A stretch of DNA of 54,341 nucleotides from a virus: positions 1 to 54,341 of IMG/VR virus record IMGVR_UViG_3300021959_005230; one strand, 5' to 3'. Below, piece by piece: positions 11,360 through 40,339 of this stretch. Each line of letters begins with the position of its first letter. The stretch's first letter is position 1. A program made the position numbers and the translations under genes. The notes beneath the pieces were generated by a model. It did no database searches. It was not told the DNA's origin and was given only the letters and a program-made list of their open reading frames with translations.

Positions 11360-11983
11360 TTAATAAACGCCTTTACCGAAATCAAAACCTTTAGTTTTTT
11401 TCTTTTTCTTTTTCTTCTTTTTACCTGGTACCATACTGCCTAAAAATGCATATCCTCTTGCAGGACTAGGCGTGGAATCAGCGGAACCAGTGTCACCACT
11501 GCCTGCAGACCCGCCGCCTCCACTTGAATTTCCATGAGCGCCGCCACCTGAGCTATTGCCAGGTCCAGCACCGCCACCAACACCAGCACCTGCACCTGAG
11601 CCTGCACCGCCACCTGCTCCAGCACCACCGCCACCGCCGCCGGCACCACCGCCACCGCCTCCGCCTCCACCGCCACCGGCTTCAGCATTTAATGGTATTC
11701 TGTACATGATGTCTATAAATTCTTCTACTGCTTCTTTTTCTTCCCCTGTACCTCTATCAGTCAAAAATTCCGTATATATTTCTTCTTTTTTATACTTAAA
11801 TACTTTTTCCATATGGGTAAAAAGAGACAGCAACCCGCCTTGGTTATATGCGTTTACGGCTTTTTCCTCGTTACTCCAATCCTTTTCTGGTCTATATAAA
11901 GGTATTATAACTTTGGGCGGTGTACTAGGTATAGTTTGAGGTATACCTGGTAATGTGGGTTGATTTATTTCTCTTAATTTCAA
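11360..11983 (-). CDS. Poly-Gly / poly-Lys low-complexity late protein, TTG start
   Basis: A 207-residue protein. The start is TTG at 11983, overlapping the TGA of the giant gene (TTGA), with GGAG 7 nt upstream. Residues 1-95 are ordinary (MKLREINQPTLPGIPQTIP at the start, of the capsid-targeting-like class). They are followed by about 75 residues of almost pure Gly with Ala and Ser, a short Ser/Pro stretch and a run of nine lysines before GFDFGKGVY. The Gly tract makes an island of very high GC (about 11509-11690) in AT-rich DNA. No function recognised; likely a disordered virion linker. Confidence 0.65.
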   Translation of the reverse strand: MKLREINQPTLPGIPQTIPSTPPKVIIPLYRPEKDWSNEEKAVNAYNQGGLLSLFTHMEKVFKYKKEEIYTEFLTDRGTGEEKEAVEEFIDIMYRIPLNAEAGGGGGGGGGGGAGGGGGGAGAGGGAGSGAGAGVGGGAGPGNSSGGGAHGNSSGGGGSAGSGDTGSADSTPSPARGYAFLGSMVPGKKKKKKKKKTKGFDFGKGVY

Positions 11984-29430: not shown

Positions 29431-29860
29431 ACCCGTGTGCTTTTGCTAATTCTTTTAATTCTTCTTTACTATTAATATCTATAAGGTTGTTTATATCTTC
29501 TGCCTTCATATGTGGAAATATCTCATATATAAAATCAAATATCTTACTTTTTTTCTTCCTGCTGTTAGGCGGTTTTACATAAGGATGAAACTGTATAGAG
29601 CCTACACCACATGTACTTAAAAGCAACCATTGTAGTTCTGGATGTTTACTAACTTCCATAAACTGATAGTTTACACATTCATTTGTCATAAAAATATAAT
29701 CTGCGGCATGTTTACCTTGTACACTACTGCAATATCGCATCATCATCCAGGCACTAAAAGCCTTTTTACCTTCATGTGATAAGTTATTATAAAAGTTTCT
29801 ATCCTTTTTGTCAATCGCCGCCATTATATCTTTTAATGGTATTTGTGGTTTTTTAGCCAT
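29393..29860 (-). CDS. Probable clamp-loader small subunit, gp62-like
   Basis: A 155-residue protein. The core (KAFSAWMMMRYCSSVQGKHA, then NECVNYQFMEVSKHPELQWL) follows the pattern of marine T4-like gp62 proteins, small clamp-loader subunits that hold gp44 in the complex loading the gp45 sliding clamp. Similarity to T4 gp62 itself is faint, so the call rests on the pattern and operon context. gp44 and gp45 are not in the window. TAATG-coupled to the apt gene. A perfect sigma70-like promoter lies inside its 5-prime part. Confidence 0.55.
   Translation of the reverse strand: MAKKPQIPLKDIMAAIDKKDRNFYNNLSHEGKKAFSAWMMMRYCSSVQGKHAADYIFMTNECVNYQFMEVSKHPELQWLLLSTCGVGSIQFHPYVKPPNSRKKKSKIFDFIYEIFPHMKAEDINNLIDINSKEELKELAKAHGYDDKTIKDIFGK
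29786..29814 (-). promoter_or_regulatory. Candidate internal sigma70-like promoter
   Basis: TTGACA (29809-29814), 17-nt spacer, TATAAT (29786-29791) on the minus strand, 12 of 12 consensus bases, within the coding region of the gp62-like gene. It could boost the zinc-finger and MazG genes. Lying in coding DNA it may be chance. Confidence 0.5.
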
Positions 29861-30399
29861 TACTCGCCTTCAAATTCAATTAATGCTTCAACATTAAATC
29901 CTGCTTTCTTTATTATAGCACTTCCACCTAAATCGGGCAAGTCTATTACAGCCAAAACTAGTATATTTTCTTTAGGTACTTTCCAGCATTGTGCTATTAA
30001 ACTTGCTAATGCCTTTGCTGTTCCGCCTGTAGCAATTAAATCGTCTACAATAACAATTTTATCATTAGATTTGATATCTGAGTTTCGTTGTATGTGTAAT
30101 TCTGCTTCTCCATACTCTAATTTATAATTTCGCTGATAAGTTTTATTAGGTAACTTGCCAGGCTTTCTTGCTAATATTAAAGGCAATTCCATATCTCTTG
30201 CTATGGGAGATCCAAATATAAACCCTCTGCTTTCTATTGCAACAATTTTAGTAGCATTAAAGGACATACATGTACTACTTAAACTTATTAATGCTTTGTT
30301 GAACGCTTCTGGGCGTTCTAACATACTTGTGATGTCCCTAAACTGTATTCCTTCTATAGGAAAGTCAGGTACTGTTCTTATAGTATCTTTTAAATCCAT
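29860..30399 (-). CDS. apt: Adenine phosphoribosyltransferase
   Basis: Converts adenine and PRPP to AMP and pyrophosphate (purine salvage, cytosol). A 179-residue protein, normal family length. The PRPP-binding motif VIVDDLIATGGTA, the ESRGFIFGSPIA block and the N-terminal DFPIEGIQFRDIT are all typical. The true start is the ATG at 30399, inside the last codons of metK; an upstream TTG is not needed. Directly downstream of metK, so it may recycle adenine released from S-adenosylmethionine by-products; that link is inference. Confidence 0.93.
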   Translation of the reverse strand: MDLKDTIRTVPDFPIEGIQFRDITSMLERPEAFNKALISLSSTCMSFNATKIVAIESRGFIFGSPIARDMELPLILARKPGKLPNKTYQRNYKLEYGEAELHIQRNSDIKSNDKIVIVDDLIATGGTAKALASLIAQCWKVPKENILVLAVIDLPDLGGSAIIKKAGFNVEALIEFEGE

Positions 30400-31484
30400 A
30401 AATCTTTTTGCTCCCAAGGTAAATCTTCTTTACCAAAATGTCCGTAATTAGTTGTCCTAGTTAAATCCAAACTAAATAAATTAAATTTATCTATAATACC
30501 TTTAGGTGTTAAGTCTACTTTACTTATAATATCTTCTGTAATATCTTGTCTTACTACACCGTCAGCATATACATAAACACTAGTTGGCTCTTTTACACCA
30601 ATTGCATAACTTAATTGTATAGTACAATTTTCTGCTTTGCCACTAGCAACTACATTCTTTGCTAAGTATCTTGCCATATAGGCGGCACTTCTATCTACTT
30701 TAGTACAATCCTTGCCACTAAATGCTCCGCCACCGTGTGGTGCATAACCGCCATAAGTATCTACAATAATTTTTCTTCCTGTGAGTCCACTGTCTCCATC
30801 AGGGCCTCCAATAACAAATCTGCCTGTAGGATTAATATGCCATACTGTTTTTAATAAATTAACTTTATCTTTTACAACAGGAAGTATAATATCCATTACA
30901 CGTTCTCTAACTTCCTCTATACTAAGTTCGTCACTATGTTGAGTACTGCATACCACCGTCTTAATTTCAATAGGCTTTCCAACACTATCATAACTAAATG
31001 TAACTTGTGATTTACTATCTGGACCTAACCAATCAGCACCATTTTCTCTTGCTGTTTGTAAGGCCTTGAGTATTTCATGGCTGTAATAAATTGCACTAGG
31101 CATATAATTAGGTGTCTCATCACAGGCATAACCGAACATTATACCTTGATCTCCTGCACCAAAGTCATCAGTACCCATAGCAATATCTGGAGATTGCCCA
31201 TGTAGTTCGTTATAAACTTTTAGTTTCTCCCAGTGAAAGCCATCTTGTTCGTATCCTAAATCTCTAACTATTGCCCTCACTAACTTTTCAATATAAACTT
31301 TATCAAACTTGTTGCTTTTATATTCTCCTGCAAGTGTAACCATATTAGTTGTTACTAATGTTTCAACTGCCGCTCTGTGATTATCTTTTCCGTCTAATAG
31401 ATATGTTGCTACTGCATCTGATATTCTATCTGCTATTTTATCTGGGTGCCCACTACTGACACTTTCACTTGTAAATTCGTACAT
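30390..31484 (-). CDS. metK: S-adenosylmethionine synthetase
   Basis: Makes S-adenosylmethionine from methionine and ATP. A 364-residue protein, slightly shorter than E. coli MetK (384). Present are SSGHPDKIADRISDA (N-terminal ATP/methionine motif), GAGDQGIMFGYA (the P-loop-like GAGDQG), GGPDGDSGLTGRKIIVDTYG and the GGGAFSGKDCTKVDRSAAYM signature, so it looks intact. Overlaps apt by 10 nt. Phage-encoded MetK is uncommon; it would supply methyl donor for phage DNA or protein methylation or replace a host activity. Confidence 0.95.
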   Translation of the reverse strand: MYEFTSESVSSGHPDKIADRISDAVATYLLDGKDNHRAAVETLVTTNMVTLAGEYKSNKFDKVYIEKLVRAIVRDLGYEQDGFHWEKLKVYNELHGQSPDIAMGTDDFGAGDQGIMFGYACDETPNYMPSAIYYSHEILKALQTARENGADWLGPDSKSQVTFSYDSVGKPIEIKTVVCSTQHSDELSIEEVRERVMDIILPVVKDKVNLLKTVWHINPTGRFVIGGPDGDSGLTGRKIIVDTYGGYAPHGGGAFSGKDCTKVDRSAAYMARYLAKNVVASGKAENCTIQLSYAIGVKEPTSVYVYADGVVRQDITEDIISKVDLTPKGIIDKFNLFSLDLTRTTNYGHFGKEDLPWEQKDLWI

Positions 31485-34501: not shown

Positions 34502-35962
34502 TTATTTTTTGTAATCAACCTTTGTCACGTGAAACCTGAACCCTTGCTCTTTGTAAAATTGTTTCCTTTTTGTAAGATGTCTTTTACTGTATTTTAAATT
34601 ACTTGTAATGTCTAATACATTTACATAGTCTTTATCAGAGGCTTTTCTAATCCCTCTGCCTATACTTTGTATAACCCTTACAAAACTCTTACCTGGTTCC
34701 AACATAACCAAGTTAAATATTCTTGGTATATTAATACCTACAGCCGCTACACCATATGTTGCAACTATAACTTTATTATCCATTTGAGAGACATCATCAT
34801 AGTTCTCTTGCCTGTCTGATTGCTTCATTGAACCTGAAACAAACACCCAATCTGGATTTAATTCTTCTAAACGTTCGCCTGTTGCTATCCTATCTATTAG
34901 CACTAATGTATTTCCGTTTACAGCAACACCTTTAATGATTTCAGATAGCTCTTTTAATCTTTTTTCATCAGTTACTAGCCATTTTAACTCTTGAGCATAA
35001 TTTCCAAACTGTATCATTCCATCTTGTAATTGTAAAATATTGATATCTAAATCTGCAAGTACACCCATGTCCTGTAATTCTTTACTGCTCATTTTACCAA
35101 CAACAGGACCTAAACTACAAGTACAACCAACTGCGTCATACTCCTCTTTAGGAATTGTTCCTGTAAGTCCCCATCTGATAGGAACATTGGCAAATACACC
35201 ACTTAATAGGTTTCTTAACACATCTGCTTTTGCTTTGTGTACTTCGTCCACCATAACACAGGCAACGTCTTCTAAAAACTCATCTATTGGAAATTCTGCT
35301 TCATAATTTTTACTTTTCTTTTCCATTATACTTAAACTTTGCCAAGTACAAATTGTATGCGTCTTATCAAATTCTTTACGATCTCCATAAAGTACACCTA
35401 CATCAAGACCTAAATTTTTGTAATCTTTTTCAGTTTGTACCACTAAGTCTTTATTAGGAACAATTACAATAGTTCTGCCATAGTCCTCACATTTATGACT
35501 TAACACGGCAGTTATAAGTGTCTTACCAGCACCTGTGGCAATCTCTTGTAAGCATTGTGTGTTTTGTAAAAACTTATTAATTATATCTACCTGATAGTCT
35601 CTGAGTATTACAGGCTGTCCTTCTGCAGGATGTCTTTTAGGCCATGCTACATGATCATAACTTGTCTGGTTTACTTCTTCAAAATTAAACTCCCAAGACT
35701 TTCTGCTGTCTTGTATTTCAATTTCATAACCTTCATCTGTTATAATAGGAACTAACTTATCTAATAATTGGAAATATGTTCTGCCACCAATGTCGCAGTA
35801 CCTTACACAACCATCCCATCTGCCTAGTTTGTAAGCAGGCATATGATATGCATGAGGTAAGAAATATTTACATGCATCAGAAATTTTACGCCTTGCTTTT
35901 ACATCAAGTCCCTTAAAACGAACATTTACTTCGTCTCTAATTTCTAAAACACATTTTGCCAT
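34502..35962 (-). CDS. uvsW: UvsW-type DNA/RNA helicase
   Basis: A superfamily-2 helicase which in T4 unwinds branched DNA and R-loops, shutting off origin replication and driving recombination-dependent replication. A 486-residue protein (T4 UvsW 503). ATGAGKT (142-148) is motif I, DEVH (239-242) motif II, LTGTIPK motif III, and SIGRGIRK motif VI. An N-terminal SAD-like nucleic acid binding region precedes the core. The promoter -10 ends 5 nt from the ATG, and its -35 lies in the receptor gene upstream. Confidence 0.93.
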   Translation of the reverse strand: MAKCVLEIRDEVNVRFKGLDVKARRKISDACKYFLPHAYHMPAYKLGRWDGCVRYCDIGGRTYFQLLDKLVPIITDEGYEIEIQDSRKSWEFNFEEVNQTSYDHVAWPKRHPAEGQPVILRDYQVDIINKFLQNTQCLQEIATGAGKTLITAVLSHKCEDYGRTIVIVPNKDLVVQTEKDYKNLGLDVGVLYGDRKEFDKTHTICTWQSLSIMEKKSKNYEAEFPIDEFLEDVACVMVDEVHKAKADVLRNLLSGVFANVPIRWGLTGTIPKEEYDAVGCTCSLGPVVGKMSSKELQDMGVLADLDINILQLQDGMIQFGNYAQELKWLVTDEKRLKELSEIIKGVAVNGNTLVLIDRIATGERLEELNPDWVFVSGSMKQSDRQENYDDVSQMDNKVIVATYGVAAVGINIPRIFNLVMLEPGKSFVRVIQSIGRGIRKASDKDYVNVLDITSNLKYSKRHLTKRKQFYKEQGFRFHVTKVDYKK

Positions 35963-35967
35963 AATAT

Positions 35968-35997
35968 ATTATACTAGTAGTTGTACTGTAATGTCAA
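35968..35997 (-). promoter_or_regulatory. sigma70-like early promoter of uvsW, leaderless geometry
   Basis: TTGACA (35992-35997), 18-nt spacer, TATAAT (35968-35973) on the minus strand, both hexamers perfect. The -10 abuts the stop codon of the receptor gene and ends 5 nt before the uvsW ATG, so +1 should be at the start codon. Confidence 0.85.
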
Positions 35998-37659
35998 GTA
36001 AATTTCTCTACCTTCATTATTATAATAAGGTAATACTTCTGCTTCTTCGTCAGTAATATTTTCTAATTTAAAGTTTACACTAAGTCCATTGCTATATCTT
36101 TTTGTTATATAAAAGTTTAATTTCTTTAAATCATCTAAGTACTCTTGGCCTTCTGGTAAAGTATCATATAGTCCAGGCTTTCTGTCAAACTGTCCTGCAT
36201 ATTTTATTCTATAATCTATACCCTTGATGTTCTGTTTCCATTGTAATACACCAACATACTCTGGAATTCTTACTTGATCTGTGTCATTAAATTTTAATGT
36301 TATACTAAAAGGTCCAAAGTTATTACTAAATCTGATACCTTGTGTTTCGTATGAACCTGAATTATAGTATGATGCAGGAGTATAAACATCTTCTGTAACT
36401 GCATCAAGTATTAAATCACCTTCAGTATTGTATACTGCTTCATCTATAATAGTTGTTACTGTAGAACTGCTAGTGTACTCTATAGATTCATCAAACTCAT
36501 ATCTAAATATGCTTAATGCACCAAATCCTAATTCATATCCAACACCTTCTTCAGGTAATAAGTTTTCATTTGCACTTACAAATGCATCTCCAAATGTTTC
36601 ATATAAGTTTGGACGCCTGTAACTAGTAGCAACATTAAAAAAGAACTGATCTTTAGCAATACCTAATCGCATAGCATTTTGATCTTCATTACCAAATCTA
36701 AAACCAAAGTTATACTCTAAGGCAAACTCGGCATTTATACTTAAAAATGCACCATAGTTGTCTTGTTCCTTTTCGCCATACTGGTCTCTGCTACCATCTA
36801 CACCATATGTAACTTGTAGTAAGTTGGATAAATCTGCTGTATCGCCTATTCTAAAGTAATCTCTGCTACTCTCATTTAAATATGTACTAACACCTTCTGT
36901 AAAATACTCTGCTTTATCTTCTGTTCTACCTATTGTGAAATATTCGTTCCTAATACTAACAGTAAATCGTTCACCGTCCTGTAAGCAATCATTTGATTGT
37001 GAGAAATCAGCAGTATAACAATTATCATAATCGTATGCATAATCCGTACCACTTATATAAAAAGTAAAGTCTCCTGCATCTGCAATAATTTTAGCACTGG
37101 TATTTTCGTATACATCTTTTTCTTCATTATCGTTTCTTACTTCTTGATTAACAGAAAAGTCTGTAAACTGTATCCAGTCTGTAGGAGCAACTGACAGGTA
37201 TCTGTGCTTTTCACTTCCTAATCTGCCTGTTACACCTCTTGTAATAGTGTCTTGTATTAATACTGTACCACCCATACTGCCTGAGCCATACATAACACTA
37301 TTTGCTCCACTTATAATACTAACCTCTTCTCCTGACACTATGTCATGCCCTAAATCGTACCATCCTGAACCAGGTGTATTTTGTGGTATGCCATTTCTAT
37401 ATACAGTTGTATGTACTGATTGAGTGCCACGCTCTCTATATAAAATATTACCACCATAACCACCTGCTATCCATGTAGTGTCAGGCATAATAGCAGAAAT
37501 TAATTTTGTGCTATCTAAATTATTTGTTTGTTTTGTTTTTACTTCTTGTGCAATAACAACAACCTCTTCTATATCTTCAGCAAGTGCAAATGCTGTCCAT
37601 AAAGGTAAAGTAATAACTATTGCAATTTTTACGATATTATCGTATAGGAATTTTTCCAT
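35974..37659 (-). CDS. TonB-dependent outer-membrane receptor encoded by phage
   Basis: A 561-residue protein. Residues 1-27 form a Sec signal peptide ending ALA before E28. EDIEEVVVIAQ right after it matches the TonB-box region of proteobacterial receptors. Residues about 45-150 form a plug: RERGTQSVHTTVYRNGIPQN, then SGEEVSIISGANSVMYGSGS and MGGTVLIQDT, the usual SG..S..YG..A.GG..I.I pattern. The rest is a beta-barrel of alternating aromatic strands ending GREIYLTLQYNY with a terminal aromatic residue. Short for the family (600-800). It has its own consensus promoter, an AGGAG site and a terminator just upstream. Such receptors import iron, cobalamin or other large nutrients and are phage receptors. 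A role in nutrient uptake or blocking superinfection is inference. The AT-rich base composition matches its neighbours. Confidence 0.9.
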   Translation of the reverse strand: MEKFLYDNIVKIAIVITLPLWTAFALAEDIEEVVVIAQEVKTKQTNNLDSTKLISAIMPDTTWIAGGYGGNILYRERGTQSVHTTVYRNGIPQNTPGSGWYDLGHDIVSGEEVSIISGANSVMYGSGSMGGTVLIQDTITRGVTGRLGSEKHRYLSVAPTDWIQFTDFSVNQEVRNDNEEKDVYENTSAKIIADAGDFTFYISGTDYAYDYDNCYTADFSQSNDCLQDGERFTVSIRNEYFTIGRTEDKAEYFTEGVSTYLNESSRDYFRIGDTADLSNLLQVTYGVDGSRDQYGEKEQDNYGAFLSINAEFALEYNFGFRFGNEDQNAMRLGIAKDQFFFNVATSYRRPNLYETFGDAFVSANENLLPEEGVGYELGFGALSIFRYEFDESIEYTSSSTVTTIIDEAVYNTEGDLILDAVTEDVYTPASYYNSGSYETQGIRFSNNFGPFSITLKFNDTDQVRIPEYVGVLQWKQNIKGIDYRIKYAGQFDRKPGLYDTLPEGQEYLDDLKKLNFYITKRYSNGLSVNFKLENITDEEAEVLPYYNNEGREIYLTLQYNY

Positions 37660-37709
37660 GATCTATTTCTCCTGTAGTGACTGATCTAGTCGTAAATCTA
37701 ATATTGTTA

Positions 37710-37737
37710 ATTATACATTGGTATTAGGATTTGTCAA
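37710..37737 (-). promoter_or_regulatory. sigma70 consensus promoter of the TonB-dependent receptor gene
   Basis: TTGACA (37732-37737), 16-nt spacer, TATAAT (37710-37715) on the minus strand, both hexamers perfect. Predicted +1 near 37703 gives a leader of about 44 nt with CAGGAG 9-10 nt before the ATG. It follows a terminator by about 15 nt, so the receptor is an independent unit. Confidence 0.88.
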
Positions 37738-37750
37738 GAGTTTTATATAA

Positions 37751-37774
37751 GAAACCCCCAAATAAATTTGGGGG
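37751..37774 (-). terminator. Rho-independent terminator between AAA+ gene and receptor gene
   Basis: CCCCCAAAT/ATTTGGGGG stem with a 2-nt loop, followed on the minus strand by TTTCTTATAT. It ends the AAA+ ATPase transcript. Confidence 0.8.
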
Positions 37775-37780
37775 CTAATC

Positions 37781-37877
37781 GTGTTCAAAGTGGGAGGGTT
37801 CTGAACACTAGGGGGAACCCTTAAAATATTATTAAGGGCTCTTAACCGTATGAGGTATTATTGAAAACTCCTCATAC
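37781..37877 (-). ncRNA. Structured 3-prime region with serial and overlapping hairpins
   Basis: In this stretch lie GTGTTCA/TGAACAC (37781-37787 with 37802-37808), AGGGTTC/GAACCCT (37795-37801 with 37815-37821), CCCTTAA/TTAAGGG (37818-37824 with 37832-37838) and GTATGAGG/CCTCATAC (37848-37855 with 37870-37877), all perfect. The second overlaps both the first and the third, so alternative foldings are possible. The last one holds the AAA+ stop codon in its loop. It could be a processed 3-prime RNA or an attenuator-like element; no known family recognised. Confidence 0.45.
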
Positions 37878-38883
37878 AAGTTGATCTTGATAATCCTTTC
37901 CAGTTATCATAATTCATTTTGGCCAAGTCTGCAATCTTAAGGACCATCCTTAATGATATCTCTCTTAACCTACCTGCGTTCTCATGCATAAAGTCTACAA
38001 TCTCCTTTTCAAACTCTTTGCTGAACCCATATTCTTTAAGCATACCATCTCTAATGATTTGATCGATTCTTAAAAACTTATCGTCTACTGAATCCATTTC
38101 TAAATCAATATAGTGACATCTACTCATTAGTGCCGCTAAATGGTCTTTAATCTTTTTACTTCTAACATTCTCAAAATTAACGTTAGTAATAAAAATTACA
38201 CCACCTTTAAAGTCAAACCTATCAGGTATTCCTTCTCTTCTTAGTGCGGAAGATTCTGCTTTCCAACTAATTGTTCTTTTCTTGCCTGAGTCTAAAACTG
38301 CTTTAAGCATATTAAGACAAACTTCATCAAATAGTACACTATCACAATCATCAAATACAAGTATGTCACCTGCCGCACTATTATTAAATAGTGTTTGATA
38401 TAAACCAATTGGTGTCATCGAGCCTTTAACAATTTCTGTTTTTACTGCTCCACCAATTTTTGCCATTGCGTCATATTCTTCAAGTATAGTCTCAACACCA
38501 AAACTTTTACCTACTCCTGGAGGGCCACTTACAATAAGTCCTCTAACAACACCGTTTGCTACAGCATCAGTCATTTCATCCAGGATACTAAATCTCTCAG
38601 CAATTCTATCCATTGCTTGTTTTTTAGATTCCTTTTTCTGTTTAGGCTTCATGTTTTCAGGTATAAAGTTATTGTACTCTTGCTCTGTTGCAGGTACAAC
38701 TTCACTTGGTGAATCAACTAGTACTCTAATTTTTGTGAACTCGGCTCCCATTAAAGCAGTTGCATCAACTGTTACAAATGCTCCACGTTTACCAAATGTT
38801 ACCCCTTTGAGTAAAGGGAATACTGCGTCTGTGACTGGCTTACTTCTGTGTACGCCATTTTTTATTTTAACAAAGTCTCTCAT
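37858..38883 (-). CDS. AAA+ ATPase, unknown role
   Basis: A 341-residue protein with GPPGVGKS (120-127, Walker A), DILVFDDCD (173-181, Walker B), an ITNVNF sensor-1-like motif and MSRCHYIDL later. It is not gp44 (clamp loader) by pattern; similar single AAA+ proteins occur in other marine phages without known function. The AAA+ fold remodels proteins or nucleic acids using ATP. Own early promoter (38923-38950) and a 39-nt leader with TGGGAGG as ribosome site. Followed by the hairpin cluster. Confidence 0.85.
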   Translation of the reverse strand: MRDFVKIKNGVHRSKPVTDAVFPLLKGVTFGKRGAFVTVDATALMGAEFTKIRVLVDSPSEVVPATEQEYNNFIPENMKPKQKKESKKQAMDRIAERFSILDEMTDAVANGVVRGLIVSGPPGVGKSFGVETILEEYDAMAKIGGAVKTEIVKGSMTPIGLYQTLFNNSAAGDILVFDDCDSVLFDEVCLNMLKAVLDSGKKRTISWKAESSALRREGIPDRFDFKGGVIFITNVNFENVRSKKIKDHLAALMSRCHYIDLEMDSVDDKFLRIDQIIRDGMLKEYGFSKEFEKEIVDFMHENAGRLREISLRMVLKIADLAKMNYDNWKGLSRSTCMRSFQ

Positions 38884-39193: not shown

Positions 39194-40339
39194 TTAGATA
39201 GTGATATCAAGCAGAACTGCTTGATTATGTTTAAGTATTGGCATCATATCCCAATACATGTCGTGTAAGTCTTCTAGTGATCTGGAACCTAAGTCTGTTA
39301 ATATATCCATTATTGCATCTAGTTTACGTTCTCCATTTAAATGGTCATAGTCTTCGTCCCAATAATCACTAAATGTTTTAAAGCCAATACTTTGTAAATG
39401 TTCTAAGGTGCCTGATGCTCCGTATATTATTTGCGGATGTAGGTTAAGCATAGGCCTTGTAATTTTTTCTGTTAGAAACATTTCCTTATGGAAACTTCTA
39501 AAATAGTCATTTACTTTGTCGTCCCAATGATAATCACATAAGTCATGTGACTCTGAACTTTCTGTAGTGACAGTAAAATAACAATCCTCATAAAGATATC
39601 TAAAGTCGCCTACTTTATTCCAATCTAATCCATCTACTTCAGGATAACTTTCAAATATTTTATCATAAATTTTGTCCCAATCGCCTGATAAATCAAACTG
39701 TATGGGTAATTGTTGTTTAAATTCTGGCGTAAGTAAGTCTGCCCATTTGCTATGTTTTAATATAGGATCATCAGGACTTGGATTTAAAAGTTCTGGATAT
39801 GCATGAAAACTAGTATAAGTATTTTCAGTATCTATTAAACCATTTTTTTCCATTGCCAACATAAACATTAACCTGTGTGGCATAATATTTGCATTTAAAC
39901 AATTATATTTTTTACTTCTTAATTTTGTTGGTGCCTCTTTTGTATAAATTAATTTGTCGTAATATCCACTATTTGTTCTGTACAAGTAGAGTCCAAAGCA
40001 TTCACTCACTACATTTATTTTGTCTGGTGTGTCTGAGTAAAGACTGTGCCAGTTATCATAACTTTCTTGTAATTTTTCGTTTGAGCCTTTGTATGTGATG
40101 TCAGATAAATTTACATTATACTTTTTACCAAAGTCGTGTATTGCTTTGTAAAAGATACTGCCATCTATTAGCCACATTGTGCCTTCACAAGTATAATTAA
40201 AAACAATTTTTACAGGCTCATCAGGATTTGACTGCCTAAAACTTTGAAAGTTTTGTGTTAGTGTTTCTGTGAAATTTTCCCAACTATGCCAAGTTCTTTC
40301 TTGGCATTGTAGTAAATCGTATTCAAATGTTTTTATCAT
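39194..40339 (-). CDS. Possible glycosyltransferase-like protein
   Basis: A 381-residue protein. The C-terminal stretch FLTEKITRPMLNLHPQIIYG, then LEHLQSIGFKTFSDYWDEDYD resembles the EK...P and GFxTFxxxWDExYD signature of some phage glycosyltransferase-like and fucosyltransferase-like proteins. The N-terminal half is not recognised. It overlaps the start of the UvsY-like gene and ends the recombination operon, where a glycosyltransferase would be odd unless it modifies DNA. Family assignment is tentative. Confidence 0.45.
   Translation of the reverse strand: MIKTFEYDLLQCQERTWHSWENFTETLTQNFQSFRQSNPDEPVKIVFNYTCEGTMWLIDGSIFYKAIHDFGKKYNVNLSDITYKGSNEKLQESYDNWHSLYSDTPDKINVVSECFGLYLYRTNSGYYDKLIYTKEAPTKLRSKKYNCLNANIMPHRLMFMLAMEKNGLIDTENTYTSFHAYPELLNPSPDDPILKHSKWADLLTPEFKQQLPIQFDLSGDWDKIYDKIFESYPEVDGLDWNKVGDFRYLYEDCYFTVTTESSESHDLCDYHWDDKVNDYFRSFHKEMFLTEKITRPMLNLHPQIIYGASGTLEHLQSIGFKTFSDYWDEDYDHLNGERKLDAIMDILTDLGSRSLEDLHDMYWDMMPILKHNQAVLLDITI

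Follow-up and report, generated by a model that had tools for sequence, protein, structure and literature searches.

Phages usually use TonB-dependent receptors as entry doors. A receptor gene carried by the phage itself is represented by the SusC-type TonB receptor annotated in the marine megaphage Mar_Mega_1, for which carbohydrate uptake was suggested and which is a single annotation in two megaphages (PMC9723777). Marine pelagimyophages and phage Melnitz encode the outer-membrane proteins CsgG/CsgF (PMC7029224, PMC9004378), likewise host-type outer-membrane channels borne by phages, but these have an unrelated fold and were proposed to act in lysis or secretion rather than in uptake. In the vitamin B12 receptor BtuB calcium is held by five aspartates located in the extracellular loops L2 and L3, which also make contact with cobalamin (PMC7360065).

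We analysed a window of 54,341 bases, an IMG/VR virus record without end repeats, which carries a gene for a BtuB-like receptor. With E. coli BtuB (TIGR01779; PDB 2gsk, 1nqh), to which it comes closest both in profile searches and in fold, the protein shares full-length co-linear homology, the plug and barrel architecture, a TonB box and the C-terminal strand signature. Unlike BtuB it is encoded by a phage at a replication-gene locus, is only about 16-24% identical, stays under the equivalog cut-off, lacks a riboswitch, has a much shorter loop 2 and carries an invariant cysteine pair in loop 3. The likeness to Mar_Mega_1 consists in a phage-encoded TonB-dependent receptor, from a marine phage there and from a presumably marine one here. 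Foldseek matched the model of the window protein (E 1.4e-12) to BFVD entry A0A8D9FQQ5, which we take to be a protein like the Mar_Mega_1 receptor; it differs in its length of 805 residues and in an identity of 11% over the structural alignment. PHROG 5687 was matched over the plug by all 26 members scanned, but is a 760-position family without assigned function to which the receptors align over only about 80 positions. No paper on a conserved BtuB-like phage family was found in the literature searched, where such a family appears to be undescribed; phage-encoded TonB receptors as a kind are already known. The initial annotation considered a receptor gene unusual for a phage, a view that has to give way to the SusC-type precedent of Mar_Mega_1 (PMC9723777) and to the finding that within the clade described below the gene is the rule.

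Anatomy of the receptor gene and its product

ORF analysis of the window places the ATG of the receptor gene at 37659 and its stop at 35974 on the minus strand. The range of 35974-37737 first assigned to it thus contains the gene, but the ORF begins at 37659 and the remainder is promoter region. The features of the locus are:

35974..37659, minus strand: BtuB-like TonB-dependent transporter gene, 561 aa (ORF, Plug PF07715, AF2 model, Foldseek, viral homologues)
37579..37659, minus strand: signal peptide, residues 1-27 (hydrophobic core and AFALA cut site, by sequence inspection)
37540..37578, minus strand: TonB box, residues 28-40, EDIEEVVVIAQEV (E31, E32 and V35 identical in 76/76 members; dN/dS 0.020)
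37249..37539, minus strand: plug domain, residues 41-137 (Pfam Plug at residues 34-132; column entropy 1.11 bits; dN/dS 0.085)
35974..37248, minus strand: beta-barrel, residues 138-561 (about 22-24 DSSP strand segments in the model; co-linear with BtuB)
37114..37143, minus strand: conserved extracellular loop 2, residues 173-182, RNDNxExD (D177, N178, E180 and D182 in 76/76; BtuB L2 position)
36973..37035, minus strand: conserved extracellular loop 3 with rims, residues 209-229, YDYDNCY...SNDC (invariant residues in 76/76; BtuB L3 position)
37668..37673, minus strand: ribosome-binding site AGGAGA (read from the sequence)
37710..37737, minus strand: sigma-70 promoter TTGACA-N16-TATAAT, 12/12 (sequence match; 11-12/12 in relatives)
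37753..37776, minus strand: terminator-like hairpin between the AAA+ gene and the receptor gene (a comparable hairpin is visible in loci L018/L093)
37858..38883, minus strand: AAA+ ATPase, conserved upstream neighbour
34502..35962, minus strand: uvsW-like helicase, conserved downstream neighbour (Helicase_C/ResIII)
35968..35997, minus strand: uvsW promoter, 12/12, beginning within the 3' end of the receptor gene

Most of what the initial annotation had read from this region was borne out. The receptor gene lies between uvsW and the AAA+ gene with all three on the same strand, it has the perfect promoter, the AGGAG site and a terminator-like hairpin upstream, and the -35 element of uvsW falls inside its 3' end. 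The signal peptide, the TonB-box-like run EDIEEVVVIAQ and the ends of plug and barrel are seen directly in the sequence, and the overall reading as a phage-encoded TonB-dependent receptor with its own promoter agrees with the homology searches, the predicted structure, the shared gene order at more than 100 loci on independent contigs and the conservation of the promoter. In 52 of 110 non-redundant relatives the promoter reaches 11 or 12 of 12, compared with an average best score of 8.6 for shuffled upstream sequence.

EDIEEVVVIAQ follows directly after AFALA in the window protein, and the motif takes the form xIEEVVVxA at the mature N-terminus across the family, in which a hydrophobic N-terminus was seen throughout on inspection of the homologues. 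The plug carries the motif GANSVMYGSGSMGG; Pfam Plug PF07715 was matched with 35.8 bits (cut-off 23.9, E 1.2e-8) by the window protein and was found in 26/26 family members scanned. The protein ends in GREIYLTLQYNY, a C-terminus of the TonB-receptor type (ENITDEEAEVLPYYNNEGREIYLTLQYNY), and by inspection the C-terminal aromatic residue associated with outer-membrane insertion is present, while a few distal members end otherwise. The generic barrel model PF00593 gave no match in the window protein or the scanned members, so that the barrel is called from the predicted structure and the co-linear alignment with BtuB. This barrel had been described as short, but with 561 residues against 614 in the E. 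coli BtuB precursor the length of the protein is not abnormal.

Two quite different signal peptides are mixed among the receptors, resembling an exchangeable module. In a 77 kb record (G018, L377:1722-1907) an isolated receptor-type signal peptide (MNNFDKNFHINFSPLYFAFAFMMFMLWASEAKASEIE) continues into a short tail of unrelated sequence, and the gene just upstream (669-1331) codes for a DUF481 outer-membrane protein.

Likeness to BtuB and candidate ligands

AF2 run with 20 close sequences gave a pLDDT of 32, and an alignment of 76 sequences spanning 36-77% identity to the window protein was used instead. In the resulting model (pLDDT 88.4, pTM 0.84) a plug precedes the barrel, to which DSSP assigns about 22-24 strand segments, in keeping with the plug and 22-strand barrel that had been expected. 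In a Foldseek search against the PDB the top match was the E. coli BtuB:TonB complex (E 6.5e-20); most of the top 13 were BtuB structures (TM 0.68-0.72 to BtuB), siderophore receptors came next, and PirA, PfeA and FepA were matched with E values of 1e-18 to 1e-16. Sequence and model together account for a signal peptide, a TonB box, a plug and a barrel, which confirms that the window encodes an outer-membrane transporter of the TonB-dependent type, transport itself being predicted.

Sequence profiles separate the candidates by a wide margin. A PDB profile search with distant members (A3 profile) gave BtuB an E value of 5e-17, while no other transporter scored better than 0.002, heme and colicin I receptors lying at 0.002-0.075. 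Alignment of the family to E. coli BtuB by hhalign gave 98.6% over 454 columns, and the B12-receptor model was matched by 21 of 22 members, no other model by as many. The cut-off of the BtuB equivalog TIGR01779 (599.7 bits) was not reached by the window protein (30.6 bits) or by another example (55.9 bits), the best E value in the family being 3.9e-21; since every member falls far below this curated cut-off, we call the protein BtuB-like and not BtuB. A cobalamin riboswitch, common but not obligatory upstream of BtuB genes, was not detected in an Rfam scan of the window and eight loci. Invariant acidic residues are present in the loops that match BtuB L2 and L3 by order, and in loop 3 residues Y209, D212, C214, N223, C225 and G229 are identical in 76/76 members. 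Automatic alignments to the calcium cage of BtuB pair only E180 with D179, and not D230 or D241, so the apparent position of conserved loops 2 and 3 at the calcium/B12 site is a lead only.

The best explanation in our opinion, and one we hold to be somewhat on the probable side, is a phage-made TonB-dependent nutrient importer, most likely for cobalamin or a corrinoid. That the ligand is indeed cobalamin or another corrinoid is the least certain part, close to an even call; it is favoured because the family profile is closest to BtuB (5e-17 against 0.002). Metabolic genes in the window and in related records were considered in this context:

30390..31484, minus strand: metK, methionine adenosyltransferase, SAM supply (TIGR01034, 439 bits, cut-off 309.4)
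29860..30417, minus strand: apt, adenine phosphoribosyltransferase (NF002636, 182.8 bits, cut-off 125)
Related loci, L304:3161-5230, L380:757-2640, L382:930-2765, L385:986-2842, L386:1062-2930 and L381:835-3186: B12-binding radical-SAM proteins, most of them KedN5-like

metK is present in 18 of the 34 records checked and lies within a few kb of the receptor gene, and members of an MTA/SAH-nucleosidase-like family were found in 11 of 21 records. KedN5-like B12 radical-SAM enzymes were found in records G001, G013, G018, G022 and G039; the best radical-SAM matches to the KedN5 methylcobalamin-dependent family range from E 9e-44 to 2e-67 and are below the model cut-off. Among the best 80 B12 radical-SAM genes in the virus collection, 49 are located within the receptor-bearing clade. 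The presence of metK, MTA/SAH-nucleosidase and radical-SAM genes fits a phage that may be spending SAM and cobalamin. Scanning for B12-binding radical-SAM proteins yielded at least 592 relatives in viral contigs, records of 236-364 kb included, and almost none in INPHARED. A strict co-occurrence of the B12 radical-SAM gene and the receptor was rejected, as the 236-364 kb phages have the enzyme and no plug-domain protein. A B12-dependent ribonucleotide reductase was likewise rejected as a source of B12 demand, because the phage enzyme belongs to class Ia.

The fold and family assignment, the TonB box and the purifying selection, the promoter at a fixed locus, the intactness of the copies and the exchange of alleles rest on computation; expression, membrane insertion and TonB coupling of the receptor we infer. 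The gene would be transcribed from the phage's own sigma-70 promoter by host polymerase, probably early, and the product exported by Sec and placed in the host outer membrane by BAM. No phage-encoded TonB was identified in 34 related records, so that host TonB-ExbBD is the likely driver. The receptor would then bring in a scarce nutrient during infection. An imported corrinoid could support methionine synthase and hence SAM, and its supply might work together with phage MetK, MTA/SAH-nucleosidase and Apt and with the cobalamin-binding radical-SAM enzymes of the clade. Against corrinoid import stand the scores below the equivalog cut-off, the lack of a riboswitch, the class Ia reductase and the loose link to radical-SAM genes.

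The same evidence bears on the alternative that survives best, a TonB-dependent importer of some other ligand (siderophore, heme, zinc or an organic nutrient) whose likeness to BtuB reflects a compact transporter. We consider this possible, though unlikely. Plug and fold are common to all such transporters, PirA, PfeA and FepA are matched too, the model scan gave weak matches to heme receptor models, and the class Ia ribonucleotide reductase of the phage is of a type normally requiring iron; the profile search, however, puts BtuB many orders of magnitude ahead of the heme and colicin I receptors.

Genomic locus and exchange of alleles

A scan with the window protein found 37 loci with 62-99% identity, and alignment-based scans gave 91, 143, 245 and 250 matching stretches. 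The receptor gene is present in 271 of the 288 viral loci collected (about 178 distinct sequences); the numbers of loci are upper bounds, because a contig may be represented by several overlapping pieces. Since nearly every contig covers only part of a genome, a contig lacking the gene says little. Of the copies lying inside a contig, 220 of 221 are intact. The initial annotation had suggested looking for the same arrangement beside uvsW in phage sequences, and it is indeed recurrent: at 107 loci with both neighbours the receptor gene lies between the AAA+ gene and uvsW in 99 cases and just upstream of the AAA+ gene in 6, while in 2 (L210, L213) the receptor site is empty, with about 110 bases between AAA+ and uvsW. 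These empty sites are useful natural nulls. A related record of 250,519 bases is syntenic with the window and has a single receptor. By terminase and uvsW the nearest cultured phages are PA5oct-like jumbo phages (56-59% identity), and no receptor is annotated in the uvsW region of Pseudomonas phage PA5oct. The receptor is a standard gene in a clade of large uncultured phages distantly related to PA5oct.

The receptor gene also occurs in a second phage lineage that is only distantly related (33 loci). There it sits within the cluster of tail genes, is read from the opposite strand and starts two to five bases after the MTA/SAH-nucleosidase-like gene. In this lineage the receptor of L091 shares 64% identity with the one in the 250-kb relative, and the receptor of L015 shares 69% with the one in the window. 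As the baseplate protein of the second lineage is only about 41% identical to its counterpart in the first clade, comparison of the sequences points to a lateral transfer of the receptor between the two lineages.

Within the clade the variation of the receptor follows that of its surroundings poorly. Over 85 non-redundant loci the mean identity is 47% for the receptor and 64% and 72% for its neighbours; distances of the receptor show rank correlations of 0.40 and 0.46 with those of the neighbours, compared with 0.84 between the neighbours. In the pair L018/L093 the AAA+ protein is 97% and UvsW 98% identical, the receptor 50%. The nucleotide alignment of this pair is nearly identical across terminator and promoter, drops to about 62% from the receptor start and returns to about 94% at the stop codon. 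The reverse pattern is seen in L064/L093 (receptor 94%, AAA+ 77%). Entire receptor ORFs are thus swapped between phages as cassettes, with boundaries at the start and stop codons in L018/L093.

Allele exchange is the part least explained by plain uptake, and being no simple prediction of a housekeeping importer it counts against one. It gives the best support to the idea of a superinfection or competition device, in which a variant receptor would be installed, TonB occupied or decoys shed to catch competing phages or bacteriocins, with rare alleles escaping. Proteins of the BtuB type are known to serve phages and colicins as receptors, and the colicin complex 1ujw is among the Foldseek matches, which together with the low receptor identity and clean whole-ORF swaps as in L018/L093 speaks for such a device. 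Selection on the protein argues in the other direction. The median pairwise dN/dS of the receptor is 0.14, with 0.020 for the TonB box, 0.085 for the plug and 0.37 for the signal peptide. By column entropy conservation is highest in the plug, the TonB box and two extracellular loops (173-181 and 212-224), with more variation in many of the strands and periplasmic turns; the loops are therefore the conserved and not the variable part. The TonB box is under extreme purifying selection, and this speaks for active import rather than for a passive decoy, because a protein merely sitting in the membrane could dispense with it. A search of the defence-system library with the receptor gave no match. 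We regard a competition device as improbable on balance. Auxiliary uptake is the best fit among the three functions originally proposed, given a dN/dS of 0.02 in the TonB box and the conserved plug and loops, while a decoy or a superinfection blocker does not predict a conserved TonB box.

Host DNA misassembled onto a phage contig, or a recent dead-end capture, has next to no probability: among public records labelled 'phage', some that bear TonB receptors are evidently of bacterial origin, but the same neighbours recur in more than 100 loci on independent contigs, which refutes an assembly artefact, the copies are intact and under purifying selection, and two short-peptide-pattern scans of 84,980 species genomes, in which distant relatives could be missed, returned no close cellular relative. 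In INPHARED the window receptor protein had no match among isolated phages, and matches to BtuB came for the most part from bacterial contigs filed in error and from faecal contigs without annotation. CAKLQH02/CAKLQF02 (Acinetobacter phage MD-2021a), AFYI01 and AGRM01 are bacterial contigs with btuB, fepA or 16S; such misfiled records can yield false phage-encoded receptors.

Returning to the nutrient importer, a more specific version, which we put forward as tentative and somewhat doubtful, combines a TonB-driven corrinoid importer, common to the whole clade of large lytic-type phages and feeding phage-encoded cobalamin/SAM enzymes, with cassette alleles kept at a fixed early locus under balancing selection. 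A large phage group carrying a working-looking outer-membrane importer gene at a fixed locus suggests an uptake port supplied by the virus, and conservation of a TonB-coupled receptor would imply that phage yields in nature are limited by nutrient uptake through the outer membrane. Should the ligand be a corrinoid, a shortage of B12 would bear directly on the replication of phages, which would then be competitors for a traded vitamin. With its clean allele swaps, the locus may serve as a natural experiment on the selection of outer-membrane transporter variants.

Further genes of the window were noted in passing. Upstream of the AAA+ gene lies a fast-varying gene without Pfam match (39194-40339, minus strand), of which several weaker copies are found elsewhere in the 250-kb relative. 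A protein with an aspartyl/asparaginyl beta-hydroxylase domain (PF05118; 45294-45956, minus strand) adjoins the terminase gene, and an ORF at 11360-11983 (minus strand), which adjoins a 1945-residue ORF, contains a long glycine-rich low-complexity stretch and a lysine-rich tail.
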